Positions 1,713-59,758 of a stretch of 64,000 nucleotides of DNA are shown here, one piece after another; position 1 is the stretch's first letter; the number at the start of each line of letters is the position of its first letter. The position numbers and the translations under genes were made by a program. Source of the stretch: a virus; IMG/VR virus record IMGVR_UViG_3300021364_003460, positions 124,001-188,000 of that record; one strand, given 5' to 3'. The notes below the pieces were generated by a model. That model saw only the letters and a program-made list of their open reading frames with translations. It was not told where the DNA came from and did not search any database.

Positions 1713-1853
1713 CTCTCTTTTTAGTTTTATATAATAAGATTATACTATAAGAGTAAGTAAACTTAGTAAAGATAGATATGTATGACAACTGTATATGTAG
1801 TAACTTCTAGTGAATATAATGCTGGCTTTTAGAAAAGAGTAAGTAGATAAATT

Positions 1854-1994
1854 ATGAATGTAGAAAAACTAAAACAACATTTTAAAAACAAGAAAAATGT
1901 TAGGTTTCATGAGCACTCAGATAGGTTACTAGTTTGTTATATAACAGAGAAAGATAACACTTCAGTAGCTATAGGTTTAACTTTTTATAGGTAA
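1854..1994 (+). CDS. small hypothetical protein (46 aa)
   Basis: This short open frame begins MNVEKLKQHF and ends GLTFYR. The AG-rich stretch agaaaagagtaag upstream could be a weak ribosome binding site, and the next gene starts 4 nt after its stop. It is rich in Lys, His and Arg. No family is recognised. The tight spacing and normal-looking composition favour a real gene that opens the rightward cluster. Confidence 0.5.
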   Translation: MNVEKLKQHFKNKKNVRFHEHSDRLLVCYITEKDNTSVAIGLTFYR

Positions 1995-1998
1995 AAGT

Positions 1999-2631: not shown

Positions 2632-2632
2632 T

Positions 2633-3139
2633 ATGGTAGAACTTAAAGACAGAAATAACAATGTTGTTGCTATATATGAAGCAGTCACTTTAAAGATAGC
2701 AGAATGTATTCCTCCTCAAAAAGCTATTCTTCTTGATACAAAGACTTATATAACTTTTAAATTACACAACTTAATTCAAAAAAGAGGATTGCCCATAGAT
2801 CCCTATGAAGGGTTTTCTATTGAGTATAAATACTCTTCAGAGTATATAATTAGGTTAATTGGCTGTAGATTCAATCAAAATAGCACCAATGAAGGAACTA
2901 CCCTTTATAAAGAAACTATAGATTTAAGTAAATATCCTAAAGAGCTCAAACCTGTATTAGCTGAGATCCACTCCCAAGGTTCACTAGGTCTATCTAAATG
3001 GTATGAAGTAGTCTACTTTGATTCAGACATTAGATACTGTTGGTGTAGCTATGCTGGTAGTGATACCTTTAAGAAAGGTGAGCAAGTGGTAGCCTGGGAG
3101 TATGTTGACAATATTGAGTTAAGTAATAAAGTAAACTAA
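2633..3139 (+). CDS. hypothetical protein, paralogue of previous gene (168 aa)
   Basis: No family is recognised. It shares the N-terminal pattern (hydrophobic-x-hydrophobic-KD-x-NN-x-V-hydrophobic) and the internal CRF motif with its upstream neighbour but is about 40 residues shorter. Only one base separates the two genes, so translation is probably coupled. The C-terminal half contains SDIRYCWCSYAGSD with two closely spaced cysteines. No membrane or export signal is seen. Confidence 0.6.
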   Translation: MVELKDRNNNVVAIYEAVTLKIAECIPPQKAILLDTKTYITFKLHNLIQKRGLPIDPYEGFSIEYKYSSEYIIRLIGCRFNQNSTNEGTTLYKETIDLSKYPKELKPVLAEIHSQGSLGLSKWYEVVYFDSDIRYCWCSYAGSDTFKKGEQVVAWEYVDNIELSNKVN

Positions 3140-3890: not shown

Positions 3891-4226
3891 ATGACTATAC
3901 AAAAAGGTAGCCCTCTCTACATAGCTCAAAGACAGTATAGAAAAGGGCTAAAAGAAGCAAAAAGAATTATTGAACTAGAGTTATCTCAGTTTGATGAAAA
4001 TGGAGAGTATAATAGAAAGTTTCCTCCTAGTATCTATAACAACTTATATCAGTTAACTACATTGTCAGCTAAGTTTGAAGCACTATTAGAAGTAGAGGAA
4101 GAGATAAAAAGTTCTTCTTTTGAAGTTGTTAGTAACCCTACTAATGCAATTATTGAGAAACTTAAATCTACTCAGATCCCTTTTATAGATAAAGAAGGTA
4201 ATGAATGGTATAGATTAAATCAGTAA
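3891..4226 (+). CDS. hypothetical protein (111 aa)
   Basis: The function is not recognised. Residues 1-80 look mainly helical and charged (GLKEAKRIIELELSQFDENG). The C-terminal 30 residues (LKSTQIPFIDKEGNEWYRL) look like a short beta hairpin. It is the last gene of the rightward cluster. Its end overlaps by 7 nt the end of the leftward 933-residue tail gene, leaving no room for an intergenic terminator. Confidence 0.6.
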   Translation: MTIQKGSPLYIAQRQYRKGLKEAKRIIELELSQFDENGEYNRKFPPSIYNNLYQLTTLSAKFEALLEVEEEIKSSSFEVVSNPTNAIIEKLKSTQIPFIDKEGNEWYRLNQ

Positions 4227-26216: not shown

Positions 26217-26685
26217 TCTCAATAGCAAAAAAGATTTCTTTAGTTTTAGGATAACTATTCCATAACTTCTCAAACTTAGCTCTATCAAAACTTCTGGGGT
26301 CTTGTCTGCTTCCACTTAGGTCAATATCTTTATGTAAAACTATTCTATCTAAAGATATCCCAGTTTTAGCAGTTAACCAAGCTAAAGAATAATACTGTAA
26401 ATTAGTATATCCAGAGTGGTCAGTCACTTCTGGAATACTATCTAAAGGGGATTCTAAAGCTATATGATAAGCAAACTCATCTACAGAGTTATCAATAGAT
26501 TCTCCATTAAAAGAAGCATTATTACCAGCTTTAGCTATTTCATCCGGAGGTATTAAATAGGTTATTTCTCCAGATAAAGAGATGATAACATGGTAAGAAA
26601 TTGTATTAGGATTAGCTTGGATTATCTTAATTGCTTCTTCTTTAGAAGATATAGTCTCATGAATAACTATAATTGGTTTATACAT
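26209..26685 (-). CDS. N-acetylmuramoyl-L-alanine amidase (Amidase_2/PGRP fold)
   Basis: The enzyme cleaves the bond between N-acetylmuramic acid and L-alanine in peptidoglycan. Visible features: IVIHET with zinc ligand H9; SYHVIISLSGEITYLIP, the usual core strand and hairpin; FAYHIALES; and VLHKDIDLSGSRQDPRSFD with H118 and D129 at the other zinc-ligand positions. The 158-residue length is that of a single-domain T7-lysozyme-like amidase. There is no signal peptide or binding domain. It overlaps the spike gene by 8 nt, so it may be virion-associated rather than a free endolysin; either is possible. Confidence 0.85.
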   Translation of the reverse strand: MYKPIIVIHETISSKEEAIKIIQANPNTISYHVIISLSGEITYLIPPDEIAKAGNNASFNGESIDNSVDEFAYHIALESPLDSIPEVTDHSGYTNLQYYSLAWLTAKTGISLDRIVLHKDIDLSGSRQDPRSFDRAKFEKLWNSYPKTKEIFFAIENE

Positions 26686-28990
26686 CTTTAGAGTTCTTAA
26701 TAAAATTAATAATATCTTGAGTTGCTTTAGATATTACAGATTTAGCAGTAGGATTAAAATTAGTTCCATTAATATTAGTAAACATAGATATTATGTAAGA
26801 CTTGTTATTAATACTAACTAAACCTGCGTTTCCAGTAACTTGAGTAGTAAAACCAGCTTTATTAGCTATTGCATTACTATAATTAAACTTATAAATATTA
26901 GTTTCTAAAGCATTTCTAACTACAGAAGTACCTGTTCTAGTAGAAGAGTAAATTTTATTTAAAGCAGTTGATATATCTGTAACTGTTGATTTATTATTAC
27001 CTGGGTTTCTTTTATCAGCAGACATGTTTAAGTAATTTACAAATCTAGTAGAAGAATAACCACTTAATAGATTATTTATCTGGTTTAACCCTCCTAAATT
27101 TTTTATCAACATATTAGTTTCTAAATTTGTAGAGTTCTTTAACATTTGAATTAAACAGTTTTCTACAGTTATAGATGTTCCTAAATTACCTCCTTCTACA
27201 GGAATTACATCTTCTGTTATATGAAGTAAAGTAGATAAACTTAAATTTCCACTTTGTAATTTATCTAAAATTAAATCAGCTACTATTAACTTAATAGTAG
27301 AAGCTGGTGTTAAAGGAGAACTATTAACATCAACACCATAAAAATTACTATTTGTTTTTACTCCTATAGAGTGTAAATTATATTTGGTTTTTATCTGTTG
27401 TAAAAATATATTAAAATCTGAATTAGGATTACTAGTAGTTGATAAGTTTTGAGAAGTAGAGCAAAACAAAGTATCCTTAGCTTTCTGATTACCTACAAAC
27501 CTCCAATGCCAAGGCTCATAATCAATACCCTCTGAGTTACCTTTAAAATAGCTTAATTCTAAACCAAATTTAGTTGCATTCTTCTGAATAAACTTAAAAG
27601 CATCTGTTTGTTCAAAGGATTGATTAAGATTCTTTTTATCCAATCCATCATCTAAGTCCATAGCATATCCTGTATGGTGTTCACTAAAACCAGGTTTTGC
27701 ATTGACTTTAAATATTTGGGAGTCTGATTGACCTTCTTTTCTTTTTCTATTTATAATAGCTTGTTGGTCAGTAATACTTCTAAAACCAGAAACTAATATA
27801 ATTTTAATGCCTTCTTTTTGAGCAGCTTTCTTTAAGTCAACAAAAGCTTTTGCAGCATCAGGATGTAACTTAACTCCATTCTCTACTTGAATTAGCTGAG
27901 TAGCATCTTTATATTTACATCCTCTAGGTTTAGTATTTACAGGGACTTTCTCTTCTTTAGGTTTATAGTCAGGTTTATTTTGCTGCCCTTCTACATACTG
28001 CTCCCCTTGAGGTAACTCACTACCTAAAGCAGCTTGCATTTGTAATCCTACTAATTGTCTAGCTGCATCTCCTCTATTACAAGCCTGAGCTTGCTCTAAA
28101 TACATCTGAGCTAACTTTTTATATTGGTCTATAAAATATGAGTTAGGAAAAGGACTTCTTAAACTAGACTGACTTTTAACATTACTTTGTTTACTAACTA
28201 TAGGTTTTATTCCTGTAGTCTTTTTAGCTTCTTCTGGTGTAGTTTCTTTAATGATAGAAGTCTGAGCTAACAAGTCAGCTTGTCTATTATAATAATTAGC
28301 AAAGTCAACCAATTTAGCACATTTACTTTCAGCAGTACCCTCAGCTACATTAATAATATTAGCAGTGTAATTGATAATAGAATTAAAAGCATAGTTTACT
28401 TTATCTCCTACAGAAGTGGCTAAGTCTATAATCCCAGGTTGTCTATTAGCTTTAGCCTTGTCTTCTAAATTATCTGTAAACTCAGGAGAAGTAAAACTAT
28501 CATATAGATTGTTAGTTCCATATAAGTTGATAGTAGCTGCTGGGTCAGTAATCCTATTTGGATGACCTGAAGGTTGTTGAATTTCATATAACTGATTACT
28601 GTATTCTTCTAATTGAGCAAACTCTTGTAACTTACCTTCTTGATAGTATTTATCATAATTACCCTCAGTGTAAATAACTCCAGTAATAAACACTTCATCC
28701 CAACTACCATTAGCACAACTTAAAGAAACTAGAGTACCTTCATCTAAAGGAGCATATCTACCAACTCCATTAAAACCCCCTGTAGGAGATATATATTTAC
28801 ACCCTAAGAATAATGACCCTGTTTCTAATTCCTGTACATCATAAACCTGAGCTAAATGGTTCTCTCTACTTACGTTAACTATAGTTCCTTGCTTAACTAT
28901 AGGGGTGTTAGAGTTGTTTCCTCTGTAAACATTATTAAGAGCATTATTCCAAGTGTAAGTATCATTAGGATTATATATTTGATCTAACAT
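26678..28990 (-). CDS. tail spike/hub protein with VanY-type M15 peptidase and class-A beta-lactamase-like domains
   Basis: Three parts are visible in 770 residues. (1) Residues 30-110 resemble the OB-fold of gp5/VgrG-type spikes (GTIVNVSRENHLAQVYDV, then LDEGTLVSLSCANGSWDEV). (2) Residues about 355-500 form a D,D-carboxypeptidase of the VanY/M15 type: SGFRS at 401-405, SEHHTGYAMD with H438 and D445, and EPWHWRF with E492 and H495. (3) Residues about 520-765 match the class-A beta-lactamase/transpeptidase serine-hydrolase fold: SxxK at S564-K567 (PASTIKL), an SxN motif at S620-N622 (KNSTNLETN), and a KxG motif at K711-G713 (NKAGFTTQ). No clear omega-loop Glu is visible, so true beta-lactamase turnover is doubtful; a peptidoglycan DD-peptidase or binding role is likelier. 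The gene lies downstream of the hub gene in the late operon, as expected for a tail spike. Confidence 0.85.
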   Translation of the reverse strand: MLDQIYNPNDTYTWNNALNNVYRGNNSNTPIVKQGTIVNVSRENHLAQVYDVQELETGSLFLGCKYISPTGGFNGVGRYAPLDEGTLVSLSCANGSWDEVFITGVIYTEGNYDKYYQEGKLQEFAQLEEYSNQLYEIQQPSGHPNRITDPAATINLYGTNNLYDSFTSPEFTDNLEDKAKANRQPGIIDLATSVGDKVNYAFNSIINYTANIINVAEGTAESKCAKLVDFANYYNRQADLLAQTSIIKETTPEEAKKTTGIKPIVSKQSNVKSQSSLRSPFPNSYFIDQYKKLAQMYLEQAQACNRGDAARQLVGLQMQAALGSELPQGEQYVEGQQNKPDYKPKEEKVPVNTKPRGCKYKDATQLIQVENGVKLHPDAAKAFVDLKKAAQKEGIKIILVSGFRSITDQQAIINRKRKEGQSDSQIFKVNAKPGFSEHHTGYAMDLDDGLDKKNLNQSFEQTDAFKFIQKNATKFGLELSYFKGNSEGIDYEPWHWRFVGNQKAKDTLFCSTSQNLSTTSNPNSDFNIFLQQIKTKYNLHSIGVKTNSNFYGVDVNSSPLTPASTIKLIVADLILDKLQSGNLSLSTLLHITEDVIPVEGGNLGTSITVENCLIQMLKNSTNLETNMLIKNLGGLNQINNLLSGYSSTRFVNYLNMSADKRNPGNNKSTVTDISTALNKIYSSTRTGTSVVRNALETNIYKFNYSNAIANKAGFTTQVTGNAGLVSINNKSYIISMFTNINGTNFNPTAKSVISKATQDIINFIKNSKDV

Positions 28991-42530: not shown

Positions 42531-42956
42531 ATGAAATACAAACTAGAAACATTACTGGCTTTTAGAGCATTAAAAGAGACTATTTGGAAGTCTATTAAGA
42601 ATGCAACTATTACAGATAACTTAGTATTAGAATTTGAAGCAGACTTAAAGAGTAACAAGGGTAAACATAAAAAACAACTTAAGAATTTACTAAAGCAGCC
42701 TATACAAGATGAATATAAAACTTTGTTAACTGCTGAAATGTTAGCTGAGGGGTACTTATGTATACCTATTAAAGGAGGCTGGGTAGTTATCAACCCTCAA
42801 GGTGAGAAATATGACTTAACTGAGAATGACTGCTCCTGTAATGATAAGACTTTATTAAATTATGATGGTCCTTGTAAACATCTTGTGTTTAGAGATGGTT
42901 TAAACTTATATAGAAGTAGAGTTAACCAAGAGAAGATTAAGAGAGGCTTAACCTAA
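42531..42956 (+). CDS. SWIM zinc-finger protein (141 aa)
   Basis: The C-terminal part YDLTENDCSCNDKTLLNY, then DGPCKHLVF, contains the CxC...CxH arrangement of SWIM zinc fingers, which bind DNA or protein partners. The N-terminal 80 residues are helical and basic (KSNKGKHKKQLKNLLKQ). A good ribosome binding site (GAGGAGA, about 4 nt from the ATG) supports the start. It is next to dps on the plus strand and its end overlaps the end of the leftward portal gene by 9 nt. The specific role is unknown. Confidence 0.75.
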   Translation: MKYKLETLLAFRALKETIWKSIKNATITDNLVLEFEADLKSNKGKHKKQLKNLLKQPIQDEYKTLLTAEMLAEGYLCIPIKGGWVVINPQGEKYDLTENDCSCNDKTLLNYDGPCKHLVFRDGLNLYRSRVNQEKIKRGLT

Positions 42957-44339
42957 AGGAAACCCTAACAAGTCTTTAATATAATTTCTTTCAGCTTCAG
43001 TCTTATTAAGTTGGTAAGGTTCAAACAAGTTTTTAATACCATCTAATATAGTTTTAAGTTCAGTGTCTCTAGCTGGCTTACATTGAATAGTTCCTGGATG
43101 CAGTGCTTCAGGAATTAATCTAGCATCAAAGTTGTATTGGATAAGTTGTAAGATAGCCTGGTTAAGTATATGCTCTACAACAAAGTCAAACAAACTAGCA
43201 ATCATTTTATTAAACTGCTCAATTTGTCTTTCTGAAGTACCTCCACTACCTAAGCCTCCTATATTGTCTTTCATAATAAGGTTAGGTAGTCCCAAAATAG
43301 CTCTCATGTTATCATCACATAAGTCAATAGCATTGATAAAACTATCTGAGAAGTTATTACCTGTAGTCAATGCTCCTACTTCAACAGGTTGGTCTTTTGA
43401 TAACTGAGTAAATACTAATGCAGATTCATTCTCTACTCCATCTTGTAACATCTCTGTTACTTTTTCCTGCATGCTCTTAGGTCTTACTTCCCCATCAGGC
43501 TCAGTAATCATTTCATCTGTAGCAGTAGGCGGAACTTTAACATAGATAAGTGGAGTAGCATATCTCATAGAAGCCTTAAATAAGATTTCTACAAAGGCGT
43601 GTTTATAGAGATACCAATAAAGACAAGCATTGATTAAAGACTTACCATAAAGGTTAGTAGCCTCAGACCTATAAGCCATGTATACTCTTTTACTTCTAGG
43701 TAGTCTTACTAAACTACCTACAGTATCAGTATTCTTAGATTTAGCTAGTTGAGGTACTTTATGTGGAGGTAGTGGAACCCAGACACCTGATTTGTAGACT
43801 TTATCATATACCTGCTCACCATCTTTTAGTATTCCATAGTCATTGGGTACTAAAGTTACTTGCAGTGGGTGGAAACTAATAAGATCATCTATCCAAGTTT
43901 GTGTCTCTTCATTTTTACCTATCTTTTGCATCCAGTTGATTTCCTGTACAGAATAACCAGACCATAATGCAGTTCTTAAAGCATCTCTAACCCATTTCTT
44001 TAATTTAGTTTCTATGTTAGCTTGTACAAAGTCATCTATCTGAGAATTAGGGTGTGAATAGTTTCCTAACCTAGAAATGACTGCTGACTCAATATATTCT
44101 AAACCTTGCTTTACTATGGGTTCTTTTTCTCTTAAAGAGTCAAGTGCTACTAACTGATAATAGTTAGGTTTGTAGGTAGGAAAGTAATTATCAGCTTGTT
44201 CATTAGGAGTATATGACCTAGCAAAACCTAGTTGTCTAAATGCAGCAGGCTGTCTTCTATAAACTGCACTAGTATTGACTGGAGGTTTAGTTTCTAAAGT
44301 AGATATGTTTCCTTGAGTTGGATGAAGGTCAACTGCCAT
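42948..44339 (-). CDS. portal protein (Mu gp29/DUF935-like)
   Basis: The portal forms the dodecameric channel for DNA entry and exit. Supporting segments: LREKEPIVKQGLEYIESAVIS, ALRTALWSGYSVQEINWM, LISFHPLQVTLVPND, then RVYMAYRSEATNLYGKSLIN and ACLYWYLYKHAFVEILFKAS. The C-terminal DDNMRAILGLPNLIM and GGTSERQIEQFNKMIASLF match the usual helix-rich clip/wing end. The length of 463 is typical of the DUF935 group. It lies upstream of protease/scaffold in transcription. AAGGAGG lies 7-8 nt before the start, one of the few strong ribosome binding sites in the operon. Confidence 0.85.
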   Translation of the reverse strand: MAVDLHPTQGNISTLETKPPVNTSAVYRRQPAAFRQLGFARSYTPNEQADNYFPTYKPNYYQLVALDSLREKEPIVKQGLEYIESAVISRLGNYSHPNSQIDDFVQANIETKLKKWVRDALRTALWSGYSVQEINWMQKIGKNEETQTWIDDLISFHPLQVTLVPNDYGILKDGEQVYDKVYKSGVWVPLPPHKVPQLAKSKNTDTVGSLVRLPRSKRVYMAYRSEATNLYGKSLINACLYWYLYKHAFVEILFKASMRYATPLIYVKVPPTATDEMITEPDGEVRPKSMQEKVTEMLQDGVENESALVFTQLSKDQPVEVGALTTGNNFSDSFINAIDLCDDNMRAILGLPNLIMKDNIGGLGSGGTSERQIEQFNKMIASLFDFVVEHILNQAILQLIQYNFDARLIPEALHPGTIQCKPARDTELKTILDGIKNLFEPYQLNKTEAERNYIKDLLGFPLG

Positions 44340-44506: not shown

Positions 44507-45318
44507 TTATCCCATTTGAAATGTTGGTTTAGGCACTGTAGCAAAAGGACTAACATAAGGTGCAGATTCCTGATTACCAGATATCTGTTTCATCAAACTA
44601 TCTTTCTCTTCTTTTTCTTTCTTGTTTCTAGCTTCTATAACTGAAGAGACTGCTTGGTAGATAGCTTCCTGCCAATAAATATCTTTAGTTAGCCATTTAT
44701 CTAAGTCCATTCCTGTTTGGTTAGCTACAATAACCCATTTTTCTAAACCTGCACTCTCTTTATAGTAAGTACCTACACTTTGGATTACTTGAAGTTTAAA
44801 ACACTCAAACTCATAATCTGTAATGTAAGTATATAAAGATTCTCTTCCTAGTAAGCAGCCTCTATACTTGTAAGTTAAGTCTATTACTGGAGGCAGTAAA
44901 GTACCTCCATAATAGTTAGCAAATAGATTTAGCTTGCGCTCTTTCCAGTGGGTTGACTGGGTGCTGATTTCTTCTGAGTACCAACTAAGCTCTCTCCACT
45001 CAGTAGCTTTTTTGCAGCTTCTTTTGCGGTCTCTCTCTTCTCCATATCAGAGAAGTTTAATGCAGAGAAAATGTCAAAGTAGTAGAAAAAGTCATTTAAG
45101 TTCATTTGACCAATCAAAGTAACAGGGTCAATGTTAGCAGGAGTGGGTTCACCATCAATAGCTTCAATACATCTGATGGCAATCATGTCTTCTGCTGGTA
45201 CACCTGTTTCTTTATCATAGTTTTTGTAAACTTCACTTTTATCTCTGTAGACTGCTGATCTAAAGGTAATTACTGCTTTGGAGTTAGGTAACTCAATTTG
45301 AAAAGGAGTTGTAGACAT
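44507..45318 (-). CDS. tail assembly chaperone, -1 frameshift fusion product (G-T-like, about 270 aa)
   Basis: Long-tailed phages often make a short chaperone and a longer form by -1 frameshifting (lambda gpG and gpGT) to recruit tube subunits onto the tape measure. Here the 0-frame protein reaches the heptamer A AAA AAG at 45013-45007. From it the -1 frame is open without a stop down to 44507: ATEWRELSWYSEEISTQSTH, later YYGGTLLPPVIDLTYKYRG, then MDLDKWLTKDIYWQEAIYQA. The extension has no start codon of its own in its first 100 codons, which argues that it is reached only by frameshifting. Computed length is 104 codons before and 166 after the shift. Confidence 0.75.
44929..45318 (-). CDS. 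tail assembly chaperone, short form (129 aa)
   Basis: This is the unshifted product. The start is set at the Met at 45318 (MSTTPFQIELPNSKAVITF). An in-frame ATG at 45474 would add 52 hydrophobic residues overlapping the divergent giant gene and is disfavoured. The pattern IRCIEAIDGEPTPANIDPV, then LIGQMNLNDFFYYFDIFSAL, matches tail-chaperone/gpG-like proteins (IDG-x-P followed by a helical D-x-x-Y-F region). The C terminus is Lys/Ser/Pro-rich. It is the first gene of the leftward structural operon. Confidence 0.7.
   Translation of the reverse strand: MSTTPFQIELPNSKAVITFRSAVYRDKSEVYKNYDKETGVPAEDMIAIRCIEAIDGEPTPANIDPVTLIGQMNLNDFFYYFDIFSALNFSDMEKRETAKEAAKKLLSGESLVGTQKKSAPSQPTGKSAS
45007..45013 (-). 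promoter_or_regulatory. -1 ribosomal frameshift heptamer A AAA AAG
   Basis: Read on the minus strand, codons GCA AAA AAG give the A AAA AAG slippery site in the correct phase, the same heptamer as in E. coli dnaX. The -1 frame after it stays open for 166 codons. It lies about 26 codons before the 0-frame stop, the typical geometry of gpG/gpGT sites. Confidence 0.75.
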
Positions 45319-45325
45319 ATTTAAT

Positions 45326-45378
45326 TTTATACTCTTTTTAATAACTGTCTTTAATGTAGAGTTTAAAAAGAGTATAAA
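45326..45378. repeat. perfect 16-bp inverted repeat between divergent genes
   Basis: TTTATACTCTTTTTAA at 45326-45341 is exactly complementary to 45363-45378, with 21 nt between. It lies 7 nt before the chaperone ATG and about 90 nt before the giant gene, in the only divergent gap that drives both. It could be an operator for late transcription or a 5'-UTR hairpin of the chaperone mRNA. Confidence 0.7.
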
Positions 45379-45468
45379 GTAGGCAAACTGTATATTGAGC
45401 CTACTAGAACTAATGTAAATTGAGATAGCTTTATCAAAGTAATTAGCACAGCTTTCTCTAATTTCAGT

Positions 45469-48400
45469 ATGCAAGAACCATATAATTTTGAAGGGATATT
45501 TAAAAGTAGAGACAATGATAGTAAACCTAGCTTTCTAAGAGATGTAGTTAGGTTACACACTCATAACTCTATGGAAGGTAATAAAGACTTTATCTTAGAT
45601 AGGGAAGACCAGTTTGAAGGTTTCTTTTCTAAGAACTTTCAAGACCAAATAGAACAAAGAAGTAGAAACTTAGATTACAACAATAGAGAAAGGCTGACTA
45701 GAGAAGCTGTCTTTGAGCATGCTAATTACAGTTTTACAAGTAAACTACTTAACAATGCTAATGGAGTTATGGGAAGAATGTTTGCTTCTTTTGAGACTCC
45801 TAACTTGTTTGATGACTCTGATGAAAGTGAAAGGTTTGGTAGGGAGACTTTACATGAGTTTCTTAATATACTAAAAGAGCCTGATGATATTAGAGAAAAG
45901 AGAATTAAAGAAAGTGTAGCCCCCAAACCTATAGCTGAAATGAACTATAAGTTTGATAACTACATTAACAGTAATATTGAGAATGCTGAAAATGCTAGTA
46001 GACATATCAATAAAGATATTAGAGACTTTACTAATAGAGTTAATGCTCAAGACAGTATTATCAACTATTTTACTAAAGGAGGACAAACTAGGTCTGTTAA
46101 GTTACTAGATAATGTTGGATACATCAACAGACCTGGTATTCTGCCTGCTATAAGTATGATTCATGATGCTGAGAGTGAGTTATCTATTAATATCTTCCAG
46201 CTACAAAACAAACCTATTATTGACTATCTAACTTCTGACTTAGTTAACAGAGCAGAAGAGATTAGAAAACAAAGAAGACAGGGTGTTCAAGTTGATAACT
46301 TTAAATTCAGACTACAATTAGCTTGGAATGAAGAGTTAGCTAATGATGCTGCTGGTTACAATATCCTTGGACCTAACTTAACTGCTATTAGAACCTTTCA
46401 GAACTTAGCAACTAAGTATGCTGATGCTTTAGATATTACTGTGCAAACACTAGATAGAAGAAATCATACTAAATTAATATTCAGTGACCAAGGGGCTTAT
46501 ATCTCTACACAAAACCAAACTGCTCCTGTAGGTAAGTCACTGTATCAAGCTGGTAGTAACTATGAATCAGGTAGGTATGTTAGAAATCTACAGATTACTC
46601 AAGATAGTACAGTTAGTGAAAGAGGTGAAGCTAAACTCTACCAACAGGTAAAAGAGTTGCAAACTAAAATGTTTGGGCAGCAAAAGCTACTGCAAACTAA
46701 TCAACCTAACATTAGTGGACCTGTAGAAACCTATGAGATGATGAGGTCTTCTTTAGATTACCTACAAAAGAATAAAGGTAAAGGAGTTAAAGCAGACTTT
46801 ATATTAGACCAAGTATTTCTCCTTCAATATGACAGTATGTTGTTTGATAAAGTTGCTGAAGGAGAAATGGGTCCTGAGTCTAAAGGTACTATAAAGAGAG
46901 TAATAACAGACTTAGATAAAAAGAAAGCTAAATATAGAGCTGATATACAAGAACCTTTAATGCTGGCTCTTATAGAAGGTAACGCTCATGTTACTACTGA
47001 TGTTAGAAATTTTAAGCAAAATGTTCAAGAACCTATCTATACAGAGTTAATGAAATTAGATAGCTTTAGAGACAGTGGCTATAACTTAGATACCTTCTTA
47101 AATGATGATATATCTTTACCTACTGAAGAGAGAATTAGACGAGTAGAGGCTAAAGTAGGTAGTAGAAGTAGAGCTATCCAATTGTTAGCTATGACTTCTG
47201 GTAATATCCAAACAGCTAATGTACCAAGGCAGCACGTTAAAGCCAGTTTACTATACAGAACAAGTCCTAATGGTATTGAAGGTATAGCTGGTGAACTAAG
47301 CAGTTCTAACAGAGGTTTATACTCTATGTCATTAGTAGATAGTGACTTTGAAAGAGATATGACTAACAATGAGTTAGGTATGATGTTCTACTCAGAAGAC
47401 TTTGCTAAGGGACTTAAAGTGACTAAGCAAAGTCCTTACTCTTTAGAAAGTAATGAGGTTACTGAAGAGTTACAGGAATACACTAAACATTACATTTCTA
47501 TGAAGTCTGATTTGTCTACAAGAAGAGTAGGTCAACTTGAGTATAGTAATGTTAACAACAGAGCTGAGTGGGAAAAGGATGTAGATAGAAAGAAACTAGC
47601 AAACTTGTTTGATAGCTTAAATGAGATGAACAAGTCTACTGGTGGAGATGCTATGAAAATTAGCTATGACTATGATAGCAAAGGTCCTATTTCAATCTTA
47701 GTTGACTTAAACAATGGCTTAAAGTATAGGTTTACTGCATTACAAGGTGGAGTTAATAACCAAGGTTTTATCTATGAAATTAACAAGTCTAAAGTAATAG
47801 GTGAATCTGACTTTATTAACCAAAGTTCAGAAAGTATTAGAACTAGCTTTACTGATAATGGTAATCCTTTGTTTATAAAAGCAGGTGAGAGGTTAACTCT
47901 AACTCCTATACAAACTACTATGTCTATGATTAGTAGTATTAGTTTAGAGGCTTCTCAAATAAGGTTAATCAGAGCACCCTTAATAGAATACCAAACTCAT
48001 TATGCTCCAGGTGCAGAAGGTAGTGATAATTTTGATGCTGGTATCTCAAGGTATTTGTTAGCTTTATCTGGTTATAGTGATAGAGGTGTTACTGATGTAC
48101 TTAGCATTGACCAAGGTTCTATTATCAAAGGTGCATTAGAGAACTTACAACTAAGGATGCGTAATAGTGATGCTACCTTAGATAAAGTTAGACAGTTTGC
48201 TGGTATAGATATTAATAATGAAGATAGACAAGCTAAACTACAATATCTAACTGATTTGATTCAAGTCTTTGGTAGTGTAAATGCTAATGATAGAAGACTG
48301 CTAATTACTGGAGAAGGCTTAGATGGCAGACAGAGTTTAAAGAGATTTATGTCTTCTCTGTTTAGCAGCCATGAGTATGCTGATGTACTTTATGACTTTA

Positions 48401-51400
48401 TCCAATCTCAAGGAGACCCATTATACCAGCAAGCTACAGCTAATTATGTTAAAGAAGTAAGTAGTAGAGTGTTTGACCCTTATCTTAACAGAACTCAGGT
48501 TAGTGTATATGGTTCTACTCAAGCATATAGACAAAGACCTCTTTATGGTGTTAATGAAAGAAGAACTGCCTTTGGTAGAGGAGTTAATAATGCTGCTCTT
48601 AGTAGTCTACAAGGTATGTTTAGATTAGGAGGCTATGCTTTAGCCGCTTCCCCCTTTGACCATAATGCTACTGCTGACTTTGGTACTGACTTTAAAAATG
48701 GTAGTCTGCTCTTTATTCAGATTACTGGTACTGGAGGTAGTAGAGAAAAGTCAGGTTTAGAATACTCTGGATATAATGAGTATGATAACTTGTTACCTTA
48801 CTATCAGCATAAGAAGATAGGTACTGCTACAGGATTAGATATTATACAAGATGCTGGAGTAGGGTCTATTATAGATAAACAAAGTGTAACTGACTATAAT
48901 AAGGCAATCGCCCACTTAGGACTTACTGTAGATTCAGATGACTTACTGCAAGGTAATGACAGGATGTTGCTCTTTAACTTTGATGTTAAAAAGAAAGCAT
49001 CTCAGATACCCCAGCGTATTAAGAATGTTATTGGTAGTAGACCTACTATGGAACTTACTACTCAACTACAAGAATTAATAGAGTTAGGTAGCACCAAGTT
49101 TGCAGGTCAAGACATTAATAATATAGAAGCATTAAGGTCATCATACTTATCTAATCTTAGAAATAGAGTAGGAAATAAAGCTAACCTAATCACAGATATG
49201 TATGCTGTAGGTATAGAGTTTGGTGGACAGATTAGAGCTACCCTTAGTAATGATGTTGCAGAAGTTTTAGAATCTATTAGAGAAGATGTAAACACAGAGT
49301 TTGAAGGTGTAGATGAAGATACTAAAGCTGAAATATTAAGAGTTAGATTACTAAATGCAGACTTATCAGGGCATTCTATTAGAAGCTTTACAGGTAGTTC
49401 AAAAAGAACAGGAAACTCATTTGTACTATTCCAACTTAGTGGAGCTTACTCAGATTACTCATTCTTAAACCCTGAGTTTGGCAGCACTGATACCTTAGAT
49501 GGGATGCGAACTGGGTTTGCTGATAGAGCGGTTAAAGGTCATCAAGCTAGTAAGTTAAGTAGTCAAAGGTTGTTAGGTGCAGAAGGTGACTTTAACTTAG
49601 CTGATGAACTGCTTATCAAATCAGGTAGCTATATTAAGAGAGATAAAGAGACAGGTTTATTTCATGTGTTCTCTTTTGATGAATCTCAGAATACTTATAT
49701 TAGAGGGCAAGCTATCAGTTCTAGAAAAGAGTTTACTGTAGTTAGAAACCTGTTAGAAGCTGTTAAAGCAGAGCCTTCAATAGGTAGGTTAGGGGCAGTT
49801 AGTAATGCTGCTTCTTTTGAAGGAGAAATGGCTATAGAAATCCTTAGAGATGTAAGAATATTAGAAGGCGAAGTTACCTCTAATGAAATCAGAACTGAGA
49901 TAGATTACATAAGAACTGGTAGAAGAGGTGGTAGTGCTAGACAGGAATCTCTATCAGGAGGACTAGCTAAGATGGTTCCTATTTACCTTTATGATGTAGA
50001 CAATACTGAGAGAGGTAAAGGTTTACTCAGGCAAATGTTTGAACAATTTGAGAGAACATCAGGAAGAGTTGGTTCATTTGAAGGTGCAGGTAAACTAAGC
50101 TATAGTCAGTTTTATGGGGTAGTTAACCCAAGTAACCTTAAATCTTACTTCTATGAGCATGGTGCACAGATACTAATAGATAGTAAGAAGAAAGCTGCAC
50201 TATTAGGTACTGACGGTAAAACATTAGCTGCTGCTTTAGTAATGTCATTTGGTACTAGTAGATTTGCTAGTGGAGATAGAAATGGAGTATTAACTCAGTT
50301 AGCTAAAGTTGCTGGGAAAGGTCAATTAGGTCAGTTTTATCAAGACCAATATTTACTAAGCTTTTTACAACATAAAGGAGATGTTACTAAAGTTGGTGAA
50401 GGGTTTATTAATAGCTTTGTTGATAAGAAAACTAAAACAGAAAGTATATCCAACCTTCAAGTTAGAGCATTAGAATACATTGGTTTAGATTTAATCAGAG
50501 ATGCTCTAACTGGAGCAAATCCTAATGCAGCTAGTGAAATTCAAAAGAGAGTAACAGACTTGTTAACTGACACTACTGGGGTAGTAGGTAAAGAGTACCT
50601 TAATACAGGTAAAGATAGAGGTAGAGAGATGGCTATTATAGCTGCCTCTTTAGACTACTTTGTACAGTTAACTCAAGCACAGGCTCATGATATAGCAGTA
50701 GTAAATACTACTAAAGATAGGTCAGCTTATTTGTCTTTAGGAACTATTGGAGGCATGAGCTATGAAGAATTAATTGAGAGAGAAAATGAAGGATTAAATC
50801 AACTAGTCAACCAATTAGGTAGAAGGTCATATACAGTTGGTATGTGGATGAGTTTATCTGGCTCTCAAAGTAAAGTAGCTATATCTAGTAAACTAGAATC
50901 CTTTATTGAAACTCAACATACTATCTTTGAACCTTTCTACACTAACTTAACTAAGTTTCAGAAAGGTGGTTCATTAGACTCACTTAGACAACTAATGGCA
51001 GGTTTCTATGGAGCTATGGCTGGTACTCATACAGGTGAGTTTCTTAATGCTATGTCTGGATTACAGCAAATAAACTTACTTGATACTAGAAACCCTATCT
51101 TTGCTTCTAAAATGGTTGGTTACTATAATGACCCCTTTACTTCAGATGCAGAGTTTAAAGAGTACCAAAGAAATTATGAAATGTTTGGGGTGCTGCAATC
51201 TTTAGTAAGTAATGAGACAGGAGACACTATTAATGCAGCTTTACTAAAGAAAGTAATAGAAAAGTATAGAAAGAATGCTGATGGATTAGACCTAAATCCA
51301 GATACCTTAAATACTGAACTTAGTAACCTAATAGAAGCTGCTGAAAACAACCAATTAGGTAGAGTACAAGAAATCATTAATCAAGGTTATGAGTACAGTC

Positions 51401-54400
51401 TTTACCACTTTGAAAGAATGTATGCTGACTTTAGATTAAATCCTGATAAAGGAGATGCTAATGCAGGTCAAGCTATCTCTACAGGTTTACAAAGAAGTGC
51501 AGGAGCTAAAGGTAGGTTTGCATTCACTTTACCTGTAATGGAGTTTAATGATGATGGTAGTATTAAAGTTTATAAGAATAGTTTACAGAGAAGTTTCTCT
51601 CTAGCAGGTGAAGATTTAAAGATTATTGGTGAAAGCTTTGGTAACGTAGATGCTCCTATTCTTAAATCTCAAGCTATCTTATGGCAAGCATTCTCTCCTA
51701 ATAGTGCAGTAAGCAGGTTATTAGATAGAATCAATGATGGTAAGTCTATTAGTGAAATAGATGTTAGTGTAGAAGATTATGAAGAAATTATGAGATTCTA
51801 CATTACAGCTATTAATATGCCTGTTGAGATAACAGAGGCTGTAGGTGTCTATGGTAATAAAATACTAGGTAACAAAATAGGGTTTGCAGGAGGTACTACT
51901 ACACCAGCAGCTTGGTTTATGGGAGGTACTCAAATGAGTATTCTACCTGAAACTATTATGGAGAGACATGGTGCTGGTAGTAGTAATAGGAGAGATGCTT
52001 ATGATAAAGTGTTGCAGCAGATTAAAGGTATAGATGAAACTTCTCAAACTATTTCTAATATAAGTGAAGATAAAAGAAACTTACAAATACTCAAAAAGTA
52101 TTATTCTAATAGATTTGTAGACGCTGCTGAAAGAACCCCTTTAATCCAGGAAACTAAATCTAAGCAATACTTAACATATCTTGCTAGAACTCTTAACAAA
52201 GGTATATCAGCAGCGTCTACTTCTGAACTTAATTCATTAATTGAAAAGAGTAAAGAGTTTCAAGAGAGATTAAGTTTAGCAGGTAATAATGAACTTGAGC
52301 TTAATAGAATTATTACTGAAATAGAAGGTGGAATTTCTAATGAATCTAAATACTCTATTGCTTACTACAGAAGAAGACTTCAGATTACTAATGTAGATGA
52401 TAAAGAAAGGTTTGGAGTTAACTTAAATGAAGGTGGAGATCCCTTTGTTGACTTACTAGGTTTATATGAATTAAGAACTCTTAGGGCAGCAGCTATTAGT
52501 CAAGGAGGTACTTCTAGTAGGCTTAATGGTGAAGCTTTAGATAAAAGTCTAGAATTTGCTGAAACTATGAAGCACTTTTACTCTCCTTTTAGAGGATTAA
52601 TGATAGGTTCTCAAGCTGATACTAATCTACCTAAAGTTACCCCTGAAGAAATGGCACTTGAAATGAGAAGAGGTGCTAGTAAGTTAGAGAAAGCATTAGG
52701 TCTTAACTTTGATTCCATTAGCGGGTTAGAAAAAACAGCAGGTAAAATTTACTTTGAGAAAGTAATAGGTAATATAGAAAACTTTGCTAAGGAAAGAATA
52801 GATGAGTTACAAAATAGATATAACTCAGAAGTTAATGGTGAGTTAGCTGAAGGTACTATAAAACGACTACAAAAAATGATAGCTGATGTCAAATCTTATG
52901 GTAATAGATTAAGTGACGACATGAGTGAATATGATGTTAGAGATATAGCTTTATTACTAACAGGTGAAGTTGAGAAGTACCATGCTGAAATTAACTTAGG
53001 TATTACTCAGTCAATGAGACCTTCTCCTATGGGAGGTTCTTACTTAGGTAGAGCAGTCTATGACACCTTTGGATTAGGAGATGTTAATAGATTAATGAGA
53101 AGCTGGGAGCTACCTATTAGCTTTACTCCAGGTGGACAAGAAGATGTAGACCACAGAAATAAGACTCTTCACTTGTTTAACCCTTATAGCTGGTTAGTCA
53201 GTCACCTTGGAGACTTTGATGGAGACATGATAACTAATATGTTCAGAACTACAAGTCAACTAGACTTGAGAGTGAGAACTTATGATGCTTCTATTGCTGC
53301 TGCTAAAGAAGAATTAATATTACTAGGAAATAAGATAAATGCTACAGTTCCAGATACAGAAGACTACACTAAGTTAATTAAAACTAAAAGTGATACTGAA
53401 GATAGAATAGTAAACCTTGAGAAACAGAAAGCTGAGTTTAGTAGACTATCTCAGCAAACTAAAGACAACACTACTTATAAAGAATATCAAATAGCTGCTG
53501 CTAAGTGGGTTGGCAACTACCTTAAAGTAGACTATAGAATGTTTCTAGATGAAAAACATGGTGGTTACAGATTAGAAAGTCAAGGTAATGTACCTCCAGA
53601 AGTATTGTTTACTTACACTGAACAAGGTAGAGGTTTGTTTGGTGGGATGGAAGCTATTGTTACTAAGTCAATGGATTTGTTTTATGACTTTAGAAAGTTA
53701 GCTGAGAATAAGTTGACTCTACAGACTTGGGGAGACGTACAGAATAGATTAGATAATCTTAATGATTCTGGTTTAAAAGAACTAATACAAAAAGGTAATT
53801 TACCAGATGAACTTAGGGATGAAATCATTAGATTAAGTAGTGACTTTGAAGGAGACACTTTAGGTAGAGATGCTGCAATAGCTGAATATGTAGCTAGGTT
53901 ATACAGTAGCCAATCAGGTTTAGAAACCTTACAAAAATACAACTTAAAAGGTATTGATGGATCCGCTATGACCCCTGACATCTTCATGGCTATGGAGAAT
54001 ACTTTAGGTCAAGCAGGTTCAGTAGTGTTAGGTAAATCATACAACACAATGGTTGGTATGTTGTATACTGAGTCTCCTAACTTAGCTTTAAGTTATGCTT
54101 TACTAAATGACCCCGATGAGAAACTCCAAACTATTGTCAGGGAAGCTTATGGTGGTGGAGATATAGGTTTAGCTAAGTACAATGAACTAAAAGATGCTGC
54201 ACAGCATAGCTTCCTTAAATCTCAGCAGATGGGTGAGTTTCTACAAGCTACTCAACAGATACTTAGAGATAGTATTAAGCCTAAAGATGCTGCTTTGTTT
54301 ATTAAAGAGTTAGAAGAAGCTTTATTGAAGTATAGAAGTATAGAGGATGCTGATAAGAAACAGGAAGCTTACACTGAAATAGTTAACAAGTTTGGTCCAG

Positions 54401-56493
54401 GTAAAGGTTTAAAAGCTCTTATTCAAATGGAGTCTTTAGTACAAGATTTAACTATACTTAATAATCAAATTAAAGATGACAATAAAGACCTACAATTACA
54501 GAAAACTTTAGAGAAGTATGAGTTAACTGATACTAAGAAAGAAGAGTTATTAAAGAGGCTAGGTTATGATGAAACTACTGGTGATTATGATGTTTTCAGA
54601 GAAAGAGATGCTCAAGGTAATGTAATTGGCAGAGGATTCAATCAAAACATAGCTGCTGCTCAACTCACTAAAGAGTACATAGTAGCAGCTTACAAGACTA
54701 AACAAGATATGGTATCTGTGGTCTCTGACTTTGCTTACAGTAAAGGGCTAAATGATGGAGACTCTACAGGTAGAAGTATGTTGTCTTCTTTTAGAGAAAA
54801 CTTTAGTAAGTTTGATTCTACAGAGCAAGCTAGAATTACTAAGTTAGTACAAGCAGCAGATTCTTATTTTACTGGAGGTGCAGACTTAGTTGGGTTAGCT
54901 GATGCTGAAAGTCAAGCCTTTATTGAAGCTTTGATAGATAGAGAGAACCAGCATAGGTCTTCTTATGTTGATGAAGAAGGTAAGTTTGATAGAAAAAAAG
55001 CTAAAAAATGGTCTTGGACAACAGAAGACTATGAAGGTAAAACTGCTCAACAAGAAGAAGATTATTATAAGAAACTATATGAAGCTCACGTTTATGCAAC
55101 TACCTCTGATGCCTTTGGTAAGACTGTAGGTGACAATGGTGAAATGTTTATTAGGTTTGCTCAGTTTAACCAAGCTAGAAGAGATGTATATAGTGATAAC
55201 CATTGGAGAGATACTGCTACTGGATTTGATATATTAAGTGACCCTCTAGCTATGGCTGAGATGTTAGGTATGGTATCAGGTAAGGTTACTCCTGAGTTCA
55301 TAGGTAAAGCTATGAGAGTAGTAACTAATGCTGTTAGACAAAAAACTGGTGAAGCTAATCCTAGTTTAGAATCTATTACTAATGTAATCTTACAGGGTAC
55401 TAGCATGAGTGAGACTCCTGAAGATAGAAAGATGAAGGAGATGTTTGCTTTTGTTCAGTCTAAAGATAAGAGTGCTACAGAGCTATTAATGCAGACTGTA
55501 GAGAGCATGGCTTTAGGTAATATGTCTGCTACTGCTAAGGAGTTCATACAAAGAGGGCAGTTTGATAACCAAGAAAACTTAACTCAAGCAGTCTTAAAAG
55601 AACACTTCTCTAAGATGGGATTTGATGCAGATGAATCTAATCTATTAGCTAACAGAGCTACTATGAGAGTTACTCAAGGTGCAGTAGCCCAAGTAGAAGC
55701 TAAGAAGATGATGGACAGAAACCAAATGGTTAATGTAATAGGTAGTCTTGGTAAAGATGCTGATGTGAAGGCTCAATCATTTATCTTTCCTGCATTAGGT
55801 CTCATAGGAGCAGCATTAGCTAGTGGTGACTTATCTCCAGAAGCCTTCCAAGTGGCAGCAGGTACAGCACTAACCAACTTAAGTTATGTAAGGTGGAATA
55901 ACCTTGAAAGTAATTTCAAAGGTACTGCTATGAATATGATTGGAGGTGGTGCTTTCAAGATGAGGTTAGCTCTACAAGAAAATGAAGGGGATGCAGGTAA
56001 AGCTATAGTCACTATGGCTACTAGAGAGTTAATAATGGGCAGTACAGCAGCTATAGTTAACAAATACGGCAGTGAGTATATTAATAAAGCTTTAGGGGGA
56101 ATTAAGACTTTAGACTTTGATAGGTTTGAGTCTGCTAGAAATGTGGCTACCTCTACTATAACAGCAGTGGCATCTACTCTATTAGGTATGATGTTAGGTA
56201 ATGGAGTGTTAGCCGCTGGAAAAATTATTAATAATGAGATTAATGAATCTGAACAAATAGTTAGTAAGATTAACCAAAGTATTCAACAAAGAGTATTCAA
56301 TCAAGCTGCTGTTGAAGAGGAAGAAGAGTTAGCAGTTGAAGGGGATGGTGAATTCTTAGAATACAAAACTGTACATAACTGGGGAGAAGAAACTGATGTG
56401 GATTACACTACAGAAGAGTGGAGTATTAATGAAGAATTTAATTATGCTTTCAATAACACTCCTGTAGGTATGTACGCATTTGAACTTACTTAA
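45469..56493 (+). CDS. giant virion RNA polymerase-like protein with N-terminal PLD nuclease domain (3,674 aa)
   Basis: Near the N terminus is a phospholipase-D-like domain: AISMIHDAESELSINIFQLQ at about 226-245 and RNHTKLIFSD with a complete HxK(x)4D motif at H333, K335 and D340, then GAYISTQN. A single HKD motif suggests a dimeric nuclease. At 2582-2586 lies DFDGD in the context HLFNPYSWLVSHLGDFDGDM, the metal-binding signature of the beta'-type double-psi barrel of multisubunit-type RNA polymerases. Upstream, YGNKILGNKIG (K2131, K2136), then MSILPETIMERHG, resembles the beta-type barrel lysines and following segment (GNKG, then RMNIGQILETHLG). Two hydrophobic segments lie near 3440-3460 and 3560-3585. 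Such size and motif recall crAss-like virion polymerase gp66 and, in size, N4 vRNAP. I infer a virion-packaged, injected polymerase, possibly doubling as tape measure. The start has only a weak ribosome binding site. Confidence 0.65.
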   Translation: MQEPYNFEGIFKSRDNDSKPSFLRDVVRLHTHNSMEGNKDFILDREDQFEGFFSKNFQDQIEQRSRNLDYNNRERLTREAVFEHANYSFTSKLLNNANGVMGRMFASFETPNLFDDSDESERFGRETLHEFLNILKEPDDIREKRIKESVAPKPIAEMNYKFDNYINSNIENAENASRHINKDIRDFTNRVNAQDSIINYFTKGGQTRSVKLLDNVGYINRPGILPAISMIHDAESELSINIFQLQNKPIIDYLTSDLVNRAEEIRKQRRQGVQVDNFKFRLQLAWNEELANDAAGYNILGPNLTAIRTFQNLATKYADALDITVQTLDRRNHTKLIFSDQGAYISTQNQTAPVGKSLYQAGSNYESGRYVRNLQITQDSTVSERGEAKLYQQVKELQTKMFGQQKLLQTNQPNISGPVETYEMMRSSLDYLQKNKGKGVKADFILDQVFLLQYDSMLFDKVAEGEMGPESKGTIKRVITDLDKKKAKYRADIQEPLMLALIEGNAHVTTDVRNFKQNVQEPIYTELMKLDSFRDSGYNLDTFLNDDISLPTEERIRRVEAKVGSRSRAIQLLAMTSGNIQTANVPRQHVKASLLYRTSPNGIEGIAGELSSSNRGLYSMSLVDSDFERDMTNNELGMMFYSEDFAKGLKVTKQSPYSLESNEVTEELQEYTKHYISMKSDLSTRRVGQLEYSNVNNRAEWEKDVDRKKLANLFDSLNEMNKSTGGDAMKISYDYDSKGPISILVDLNNGLKYRFTALQGGVNNQGFIYEINKSKVIGESDFINQSSESIRTSFTDNGNPLFIKAGERLTLTPIQTTMSMISSISLEASQIRLIRAPLIEYQTHYAPGAEGSDNFDAGISRYLLALSGYSDRGVTDVLSIDQGSIIKGALENLQLRMRNSDATLDKVRQFAGIDINNEDRQAKLQYLTDLIQVFGSVNANDRRLLITGEGLDGRQSLKRFMSSLFSSHEYADVLYDFIQSQGDPLYQQATANYVKEVSSRVFDPYLNRTQVSVYGSTQAYRQRPLYGVNERRTAFGRGVNNAALSSLQGMFRLGGYALAASPFDHNATADFGTDFKNGSLLFIQITGTGGSREKSGLEYSGYNEYDNLLPYYQHKKIGTATGLDIIQDAGVGSIIDKQSVTDYNKAIAHLGLTVDSDDLLQGNDRMLLFNFDVKKKASQIPQRIKNVIGSRPTMELTTQLQELIELGSTKFAGQDINNIEALRSSYLSNLRNRVGNKANLITDMYAVGIEFGGQIRATLSNDVAEVLESIREDVNTEFEGVDEDTKAEILRVRLLNADLSGHSIRSFTGSSKRTGNSFVLFQLSGAYSDYSFLNPEFGSTDTLDGMRTGFADRAVKGHQASKLSSQRLLGAEGDFNLADELLIKSGSYIKRDKETGLFHVFSFDESQNTYIRGQAISSRKEFTVVRNLLEAVKAEPSIGRLGAVSNAASFEGEMAIEILRDVRILEGEVTSNEIRTEIDYIRTGRRGGSARQESLSGGLAKMVPIYLYDVDNTERGKGLLRQMFEQFERTSGRVGSFEGAGKLSYSQFYGVVNPSNLKSYFYEHGAQILIDSKKKAALLGTDGKTLAAALVMSFGTSRFASGDRNGVLTQLAKVAGKGQLGQFYQDQYLLSFLQHKGDVTKVGEGFINSFVDKKTKTESISNLQVRALEYIGLDLIRDALTGANPNAASEIQKRVTDLLTDTTGVVGKEYLNTGKDRGREMAIIAASLDYFVQLTQAQAHDIAVVNTTKDRSAYLSLGTIGGMSYEELIERENEGLNQLVNQLGRRSYTVGMWMSLSGSQSKVAISSKLESFIETQHTIFEPFYTNLTKFQKGGSLDSLRQLMAGFYGAMAGTHTGEFLNAMSGLQQINLLDTRNPIFASKMVGYYNDPFTSDAEFKEYQRNYEMFGVLQSLVSNETGDTINAALLKKVIEKYRKNADGLDLNPDTLNTELSNLIEAAENNQLGRVQEIINQGYEYSLYHFERMYADFRLNPDKGDANAGQAISTGLQRSAGAKGRFAFTLPVMEFNDDGSIKVYKNSLQRSFSLAGEDLKIIGESFGNVDAPILKSQAILWQAFSPNSAVSRLLDRINDGKSISEIDVSVEDYEEIMRFYITAINMPVEITEAVGVYGNKILGNKIGFAGGTTTPAAWFMGGTQMSILPETIMERHGAGSSNRRDAYDKVLQQIKGIDETSQTISNISEDKRNLQILKKYYSNRFVDAAERTPLIQETKSKQYLTYLARTLNKGISAASTSELNSLIEKSKEFQERLSLAGNNELELNRIITEIEGGISNESKYSIAYYRRRLQITNVDDKERFGVNLNEGGDPFVDLLGLYELRTLRAAAISQGGTSSRLNGEALDKSLEFAETMKHFYSPFRGLMIGSQADTNLPKVTPEEMALEMRRGASKLEKALGLNFDSISGLEKTAGKIYFEKVIGNIENFAKERIDELQNRYNSEVNGELAEGTIKRLQKMIADVKSYGNRLSDDMSEYDVRDIALLLTGEVEKYHAEINLGITQSMRPSPMGGSYLGRAVYDTFGLGDVNRLMRSWELPISFTPGGQEDVDHRNKTLHLFNPYSWLVSHLGDFDGDMITNMFRTTSQLDLRVRTYDASIAAAKEELILLGNKINATVPDTEDYTKLIKTKSDTEDRIVNLEKQKAEFSRLSQQTKDNTTYKEYQIAAAKWVGNYLKVDYRMFLDEKHGGYRLESQGNVPPEVLFTYTEQGRGLFGGMEAIVTKSMDLFYDFRKLAENKLTLQTWGDVQNRLDNLNDSGLKELIQKGNLPDELRDEIIRLSSDFEGDTLGRDAAIAEYVARLYSSQSGLETLQKYNLKGIDGSAMTPDIFMAMENTLGQAGSVVLGKSYNTMVGMLYTESPNLALSYALLNDPDEKLQTIVREAYGGGDIGLAKYNELKDAAQHSFLKSQQMGEFLQATQQILRDSIKPKDAALFIKELEEALLKYRSIEDADKKQEAYTEIVNKFGPGKGLKALIQMESLVQDLTILNNQIKDDNKDLQLQKTLEKYELTDTKKEELLKRLGYDETTGDYDVFRERDAQGNVIGRGFNQNIAAAQLTKEYIVAAYKTKQDMVSVVSDFAYSKGLNDGDSTGRSMLSSFRENFSKFDSTEQARITKLVQAADSYFTGGADLVGLADAESQAFIEALIDRENQHRSSYVDEEGKFDRKKAKKWSWTTEDYEGKTAQQEEDYYKKLYEAHVYATTSDAFGKTVGDNGEMFIRFAQFNQARRDVYSDNHWRDTATGFDILSDPLAMAEMLGMVSGKVTPEFIGKAMRVVTNAVRQKTGEANPSLESITNVILQGTSMSETPEDRKMKEMFAFVQSKDKSATELLMQTVESMALGNMSATAKEFIQRGQFDNQENLTQAVLKEHFSKMGFDADESNLLANRATMRVTQGAVAQVEAKKMMDRNQMVNVIGSLGKDADVKAQSFIFPALGLIGAALASGDLSPEAFQVAAGTALTNLSYVRWNNLESNFKGTAMNMIGGGAFKMRLALQENEGDAGKAIVTMATRELIMGSTAAIVNKYGSEYINKALGGIKTLDFDRFESARNVATSTITAVASTLLGMMLGNGVLAAGKIINNEINESEQIVSKINQSIQQRVFNQAAVEEEEELAVEGDGEFLEYKTVHNWGEETDVDYTTEEWSINEEFNYAFNNTPVGMYAFELT

Positions 56494-59146: not shown

Positions 59147-59758
59147 ATGAAATATAAGTATCCTAGAACCCCTCACTTACCTTTTAGTCCTGGTGCTACT
59201 TCAGATGACATCTTTAGTACAACTAACTTTAAAGGTAGGGAGATAGTTATTACTGAAAAGATGGATGGTGAAAACACTAGTCTTTATTCTAATTACTACC
59301 ATGCTAGAAGTATTGATAGTAAGCATAATGAGTCTCAATCTTGGTTAAAGAACTATCACTCTCAGATAGCTTATAAGATTCCTCAAAACTGGAGGTTATG
59401 TGGAGAGAATCTTTATACAGTCCACTCACTTTCTTATACTAACTTAAAGAGCTATTTCTTACTATTTAGTATATGGGAAGAAGAACTATGTTTAAGTTGG
59501 CAGGATACTGTAGACTTTGCTAGTGAATTGGAAGTAATTTTAGTTCCTGTACTTTACCAAGGTGAGTATAGTGAAAAGCTAGTTAAAGAGTTAGTGGCTA
59601 GTTTAGATTTGACTAAACAAGAAGGAATTGTAATTAGAATAGCTGACAGTTTTAAGTATAGTGAATTTAGTAACTCAGTAGCTAAATGGGTTAGAAAGAA
59701 TCATGTAACTACTGCTAATCACTGGAAACAAAGTAAGCTAGAACTAAACACTCTCTGA
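59147..59758 (+). CDS. RNA ligase (nucleotidyltransferase family)
   Basis: ATP-dependent RNA ligases seal RNA nicks or breaks through a lysyl-AMP intermediate. Motif I KMDGEN gives catalytic K38. Motif III is LCGENLY with E87, IIIa is FLLFSIW at 104-110, motif IV is EGIVIR at 159-164, and motif V is KWVRK at 180-184. All are in order and properly spaced. At 203 residues it is a minimal catalytic core like the small phage/DRB0094-like ligases, without a C-terminal specificity domain. It could repair tRNA or other RNA cut by host defence nucleases. It is divergent from the PAAR cluster and converges with the gene after it (15-nt overlap). Confidence 0.9.
   Translation: MKYKYPRTPHLPFSPGATSDDIFSTTNFKGREIVITEKMDGENTSLYSNYYHARSIDSKHNESQSWLKNYHSQIAYKIPQNWRLCGENLYTVHSLSYTNLKSYFLLFSIWEEELCLSWQDTVDFASELEVILVPVLYQGEYSEKLVKELVASLDLTKQEGIVIRIADSFKYSEFSNSVAKWVRKNHVTTANHWKQSKLELNTL

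Follow-up and report, generated by a model that had tools for sequence, protein, structure and literature searches.

A probable single-chain RNA polymerase of very large size in Ma-LMM01-like cyanophages

The locus and its phage

The stretch of DNA analysed here, referred to as the window, has a length of 64,000 nucleotides and covers positions 124001-188000 of a 190,865-base viral contig. At 45469-56493 on its plus strand lies an open reading frame that is translated without an internal stop into a protein of 3,674 residues, as an earlier note on this DNA had claimed. The note proposed that this giant protein is an RNA polymerase (RNAP) with two double-psi barrels in one chain. In the present work, we examine this proposal by comparing the protein with its relatives and with the proven single-chain two-barrel RNAPs. 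The features discussed below are the following (window coordinates, residues of the giant protein).

42948-44339, minus strand: portal protein; adjoins the giant gene in most members with flanking sequence
44929-45474, minus strand: small protein between the portal and giant genes (phrog_32670); kept in several members
45469-56493, plus strand: giant protein, homologue of Ma-LMM01 gp080 (phrog_31006), from ORF translation and profile and sequence matches
46096-46578, plus strand: PLD-like domain, residues ~210-370, with HxKx4Dx6(S/G)(T/S)xN at residues 333-349
48994-49041, plus strand: KxxQxxQRxKNxxGxR, residues 1176-1191, near-invariant in the alignments
49861-50268, plus strand: best candidate for a beta-type (second) barrel, residues 1465-1600, with R1491, K1501 and K1558
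51859-51876, plus strand: K2131 and K2136 of the earlier note, variable in the alignment
52981-53268, plus strand: candidate beta'-type barrel, residues 2505-2600, with R2517, from the triad-region alignment
53212-53226, plus strand: DFDGD, proposed Mg2+-binding catalytic triad
53959-54078, plus strand: conserved Gly-rich helix region, residues 2831-2870, with G2831, G2850, G2855, Y2858 and N2859 invariant
54265-54285, plus strand: RDSIKPK, residues 2933-2939, proposed D..K motif of a bridge helix or trigger loop
57356-58246, minus strand: uncharacterised protein on the far side of the giant gene (phrog_35244), a conserved neighbour in many members

The phage is a contractile-tailed cyanophage and a relative of the Microcystis phage Ma-LMM01, which agrees with its earlier description as a cyanophage-type myovirus. 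Genes for a tail sheath, a major head protein, a Mu-type portal and baseplate parts are identified in the window by PHROGs and Pfam matches, and the order of the giant gene and its neighbours is the same in Ma-LMM01. The giant protein matches phrog_31006, to which no function is assigned, with an E-value of 3.7e-221, and Ma-LMM01 gp080 is a direct homologue over its length, at 27% identity. The family bears no polymerase annotation, the LMM01 homologue being labelled only 'hypothetical' or, in UniProt (A0A7J4), 'PLD phosphodiesterase domain-containing'. Homologues occur in nine Microcystis phage records, from LMM01 and MaMV strains, and in one Microcoleus phage; the giant protein is thus no singleton, and the finding concerns a cultured phage group and not one contig. 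Its position beside the portal gene is as expected for a virion protein, which it may be.

A few other genes deserve mention. At 26678-28990 (minus strand) a baseplate-like protein is fused to VanY carboxypeptidase and beta-lactamase-family domains, and is probably a cell-wall-cutting part of the tail. The adjacent large proteins at 4220-7021 and 7029-11429 (minus strand) both match phrog_877, phrog_358 and phrog_5986, and appear to be a duplicated pair. A 203-residue protein at 59147-59758 (plus strand) resembles the C-terminal part of the RNA-ligase family phrog_24030 (E 4.6e-68). Two open frames appear to share the family-A DNA polymerase between them in the genome of the window (G000:C1 69112-71203), in LMM01 (157489-158636) and in several relatives.

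Counting the window, scans of IMG/VR and of a phage collection yielded 23 members that have the core region; two further contigs stop short of the core and are outside this set. The last viral scan added no member to the 23, and a scan of genome contigs for relatives found none. In one member (L005, 6500-6820) the giant gene is broken ahead of the candidate second barrel by a single in-frame stop, with homologous sequence on either side of it. Another member, L126, has a DnaQ/RNase H-like exonuclease domain (residues ~1410-1660; phrog_192, E 1.1e-9; RNase_H_2, E 0.01) inserted between the two candidate barrels. Two alignments are used below: one of the triad region with all 23 members (A12), and a full-length one, in which the triad of L126 and the upstream Arg of both L126 and L131 are out of register.

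Conserved motifs of the giant protein

The earlier note had pointed to DFDGD at residues 2582-2586, and the motif is indeed there, in the context HLFNPYSWLVSHLGDFDGDM. In A12, DxDGD is present in 23 of 23 members at local identities to the window as low as 16%, with F, Y or W as the second residue. Judged from this alignment, the conservation is more than chance. It is important to point out that the pentapeptide alone is little proof, since mouse antibody light chains, retrieved in a PDB search with the A12 profile, also contain DFDGDSY; the argument from sequence rests on conservation and not on DFDGD as such. All 23 members of A12 likewise share an Arg (R2517) that precedes the triad by fewer than 85 residues.

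The lysines that the earlier note assigned to the other barrel fare differently. The segment YGNKILGNKIG (K2131 and K2136), followed by MSILPETIMERHG, is present about 450 residues upstream of DFDGD, but a catalytic role for the two lysines is not supported: the positions are Lys in 6/23 and 11/23 members, respectively, while the other members have R, Q, L, E, G, A or further residues there. The best candidate for the second-barrel site is most likely formed by residues 1465-1600, about 1,000 residues before DFDGD. Here R1491, K1501 and K1558, which we infer to lie in the barrel, are each conserved in 22/22 members of the full-length alignment. The distance from K1501 to DFDGD is 1,081 residues, some three times the largest among the single-chain RNAPs examined, which counts against the assignment. 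Over the whole protein, the invariant basic residues are R1491, K1501, K1558, R2517, R2933, K2937 and K2939.

Downstream of the triad, R2933, D2934, K2937 and K2939 of RDSIKPK are each present in 23/23 members of the full-length alignment, as are Y2858 and N2859 of the Gly-rich region. The stretch KxxQxxQRxKNxxGxR, for which we have no explanation yet, is among the most conserved of the giant protein, with its R and K in all 21 alignable members. In the PLD-like domain, of which one motif per chain was noted, H333 and K335 occur in 17/17 members alignable there and the Asp in 16/19; in member L013, PLDc_2 matches with an E-value of 0.0008, its score falling short of the Pfam cut-off.

Comparison with known polymerases

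We now turn to the proven single-chain two-barrel RNAPs, the comparison set being phi14:2 gp66 (identical to the 6vr4 chain), P23-45 gp96 and gp64, YonO, and the crAss relatives. The charged positions conserved best across 72 crAss RNAPs include, from N- to C-terminus, K1012 (KGV), K1027, R1322 (RIP), the D1361 triad, D1612 and K1615. The motifs of the giant-protein family, R1491...K1501G(V/P), GxxNPxNxK1558, RSxPxG, GDFDGD and RDSIKxK, follow the same order as in the known RNAPs. The correspondences for the second barrel and the D..K motif were chosen by eye and post hoc, and are suggestive, not tests in themselves.

The earlier note named YonO, the crAss polymerase and N4 as points of comparison; the tape-measure-fused virion RNAP of P23-45, discovered through a similar DFDGD hint, belongs there too (PMC10770324). 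Like our protein, P23-45 gp96 has DFDGD within a giant protein (a virion protein in the case of gp96) and is without detectable sequence similarity to other RNAPs. Its motifs are, in order, LKGTVIVDPRAK, FRNPVMG, VDFDGD and SIDFPK; FRNPVMG stands about 40 residues upstream of the triad, and KGTVIVDPRAK is found in the region upstream of it. R741 of gp96 and R1322 of gp66 compare with R2517; SIDFPK, like IDFAK of YonO and VDNAK of gp66, compares with RDSIKPK. The two differ in that gp96 has 5,002 residues, a metallopeptidase domain and its RNAP at the N-terminus, whereas in the giant protein a PLD-like domain precedes the core (~1465-2960), with some 1,000 residues between the candidate barrels.

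The crAss protein phi14:2 gp66 (AGO48955) is also a giant single chain encoded among structural genes (in its case a virion protein), with KGV, LKYS, RIP, SDFDID and VDNAK ordered as the motifs of the giant-protein family. It differs in its 2,180 residues, in its origin from a podovirus of Bacteroidota, in having DFDID in place of DxDGD, and in a distance of only about 350 residues between its barrels. The SPbeta enzyme YonO, from a Bacillus phage, shares the single chain, with RSPHL before FDNDGD and IDFAK after it (PMC5467207), but has 839 residues, no N-terminal domain, and is a non-virion prophage enzyme. The N4 virion RNAP, of about 3,500 residues and thus of a size similar to the giant protein, is packaged and ejected into the host (PMC12633501).

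Two other classes of RNAP were considered and set aside. The N4 enzyme is a member of the T7-like RNAP superfamily; the giant protein has no match to PF00940, which is a weak test, as the control genomes gave none either. For a multisubunit beta' subunit, PF04997 (Rpb1 domain 1) was matched in 0/9 records, and the controls were positive in 14/14.

No significant sequence or profile match of the giant protein to any known RNAP was found. PDB profile searches with A2, A4 and A12 returned only coiled coils, helical surface proteins and antibody light chains. Against the crAss RNAPs the family is not significant either, the best full-length and C-terminal profile alignment falling on the triad. 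However, the crAss RNAPs align with gp96 at E 0.16 and with gp64 at E 0.17 (both on the triad), and with YonO at E 0.19, out of place; this profile test does not discriminate, because the proven relatives equally miss each other. An hhalign comparison of whole YonO with the family places one YonO strand on NPxNxK1558, at an E-value of 0.4, which is not significant. The family barrel profile has its best hit on DxDxD in 60 of 69 known RNAPs, at up to 8.3 bits vs 0.2 for reversed decoys, a signal that owes most to the motif itself. When windows were compared all against all (1,596 pairs), the four triad pairs rank 15th to 25th, and the second-barrel pairs (116th or lower) and D..K pairs (193rd or lower) are unremarkable.

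The structural models are of low confidence. AlphaFold gives a pLDDT of 57 and a pTM of 0.38 for residues 1755-2954 of the window protein, and 64 and 0.45 for residues 1510-2709 of L013 (approximately window 1427-2677). Foldseek searches of these models against the PDB found nothing at E <= 0.001; against the BFVD viral models only LMM01 gp080 was convincing, the second hit having an E-value of 8.5e-4 and a TM-score of 0.09.

Alternative explanations

From the invariant triad, the Arg, the basic residues, the motif order and the gene context, a single-chain two-barrel RNAP is the best explanation of the giant protein. The earlier proposal of beta'-like catalytic aspartates is upheld as far as the behaviour of the triad and the match in motif order with the proven enzymes are concerned, while the two double-psi barrels themselves stay at the level of inference. 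On sequence grounds we consider it likely that the protein is a very large RNAP of this kind, forming a branch of its own in LMM01-like cyanophages.

A variant that partly overlaps with this assignment would place the second barrel at residues ~2010-2175, near the position in the earlier note, and would assign the part of the lysines to other residues. The spacing to DFDGD would then be nearer to that of the known single-chain RNAPs, a beta-hairpin is predicted there with fair local confidence in both AlphaFold models, and the top pair of the blind scan lies in this region (family 2050-2137 with crAss 1019-1104, just after K1027; E 0.0012 per comparison). The matching stretch is, however, a single helix, and the site has no invariant basic residue, K2131 and K2136 varying freely, which makes this placement rather unlikely in our assessment.

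A structural or ejection protein devoid of polymerase activity, whose DxDGD would bind calcium or magnesium as, for example, in an EF-hand-like loop or in a dead polymerase, is also an improbable solution, slightly more so than the alternative placement. The protein is very large and mostly helical by prediction, its gene is in the head module, and a DFDGD can occur by chance. On the other hand, the loop is not that of an EF-hand, as its position 6 is never Gly and its position 12 is Glu in 1/23 members, and the far-apart invariant Arg, Lys and Asp residues are hard to explain without catalysis. Very doubtful, finally, is a two-barrel polymerase that makes DNA, in the manner of PolD, or primers instead of transcripts. 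PolD also has a double-barrel active site (PMC4996933), and the exonuclease inserted in L126 is a proofreading kind of domain; yet this insert occurs in one member only, the giant gene sits with head genes, and 11 of 16 records, those of LMM01 and of the window's genome among them, encode pieces of a separate family-A DNA polymerase, a point against the giant protein as the replicase.

Published work on the phage group also bears on the question. The Ma-LMM01 transcriptome was read, from predicted promoters, as wholly dependent on the host SigA, with the early/middle/late switching left unexplained (PMC5780444), and this reading counts against a phage RNAP. The text of that paper gives no expression class for gp080. 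The MaMV-DH01 genome paper states that an RNA polymerase is lacking (PMC9927357). Both statements predate knowledge of the motifs of the giant-protein family.

Proposed role and implications

If the giant protein is a single-chain two-barrel RNAP, the DxDGD triad would bind the Mg2+ ions, and residues 1491-1558, in the second barrel, would touch, together with R2517, both the incoming NTP and the end of the growing RNA. The segment with the D..K motif (2933-2939) would be part of the bridge helix or trigger loop. By analogy with crAss gp66 and P23-45 gp96 (PMC7886860, PMC10770324), and from the position of its gene, the protein may be packaged and injected alongside the DNA, and would then transcribe phage genes. 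During entry, its PLD-like domain at the N-terminus may have DNA or membrane as its target. A more demanding proposal, to which we give somewhat less than even weight, is that the family in full represents a deep separate branch of single-chain two-barrel RNAPs: chains of ~3,000-4,700 residues, with a PLD-like domain at the N-terminus and some 1,000 residues between the barrels, which contractile-tailed cyanophages described as wholly dependent on the host RNAP would inject together with their DNA.

Judging from the conserved motifs, a phage group of which one member was published as being without an RNAP probably carries a very large one of its own. Ma-LMM01 and its relatives are bloom-infecting phages, and if the assignment is true, the question of early/middle/late switching would become directly testable in a cultured phage system. 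The superfamily to which the cellular RNAPs belong would also gain a very distant branch, which would help to show how small the indispensable part of the enzyme is.
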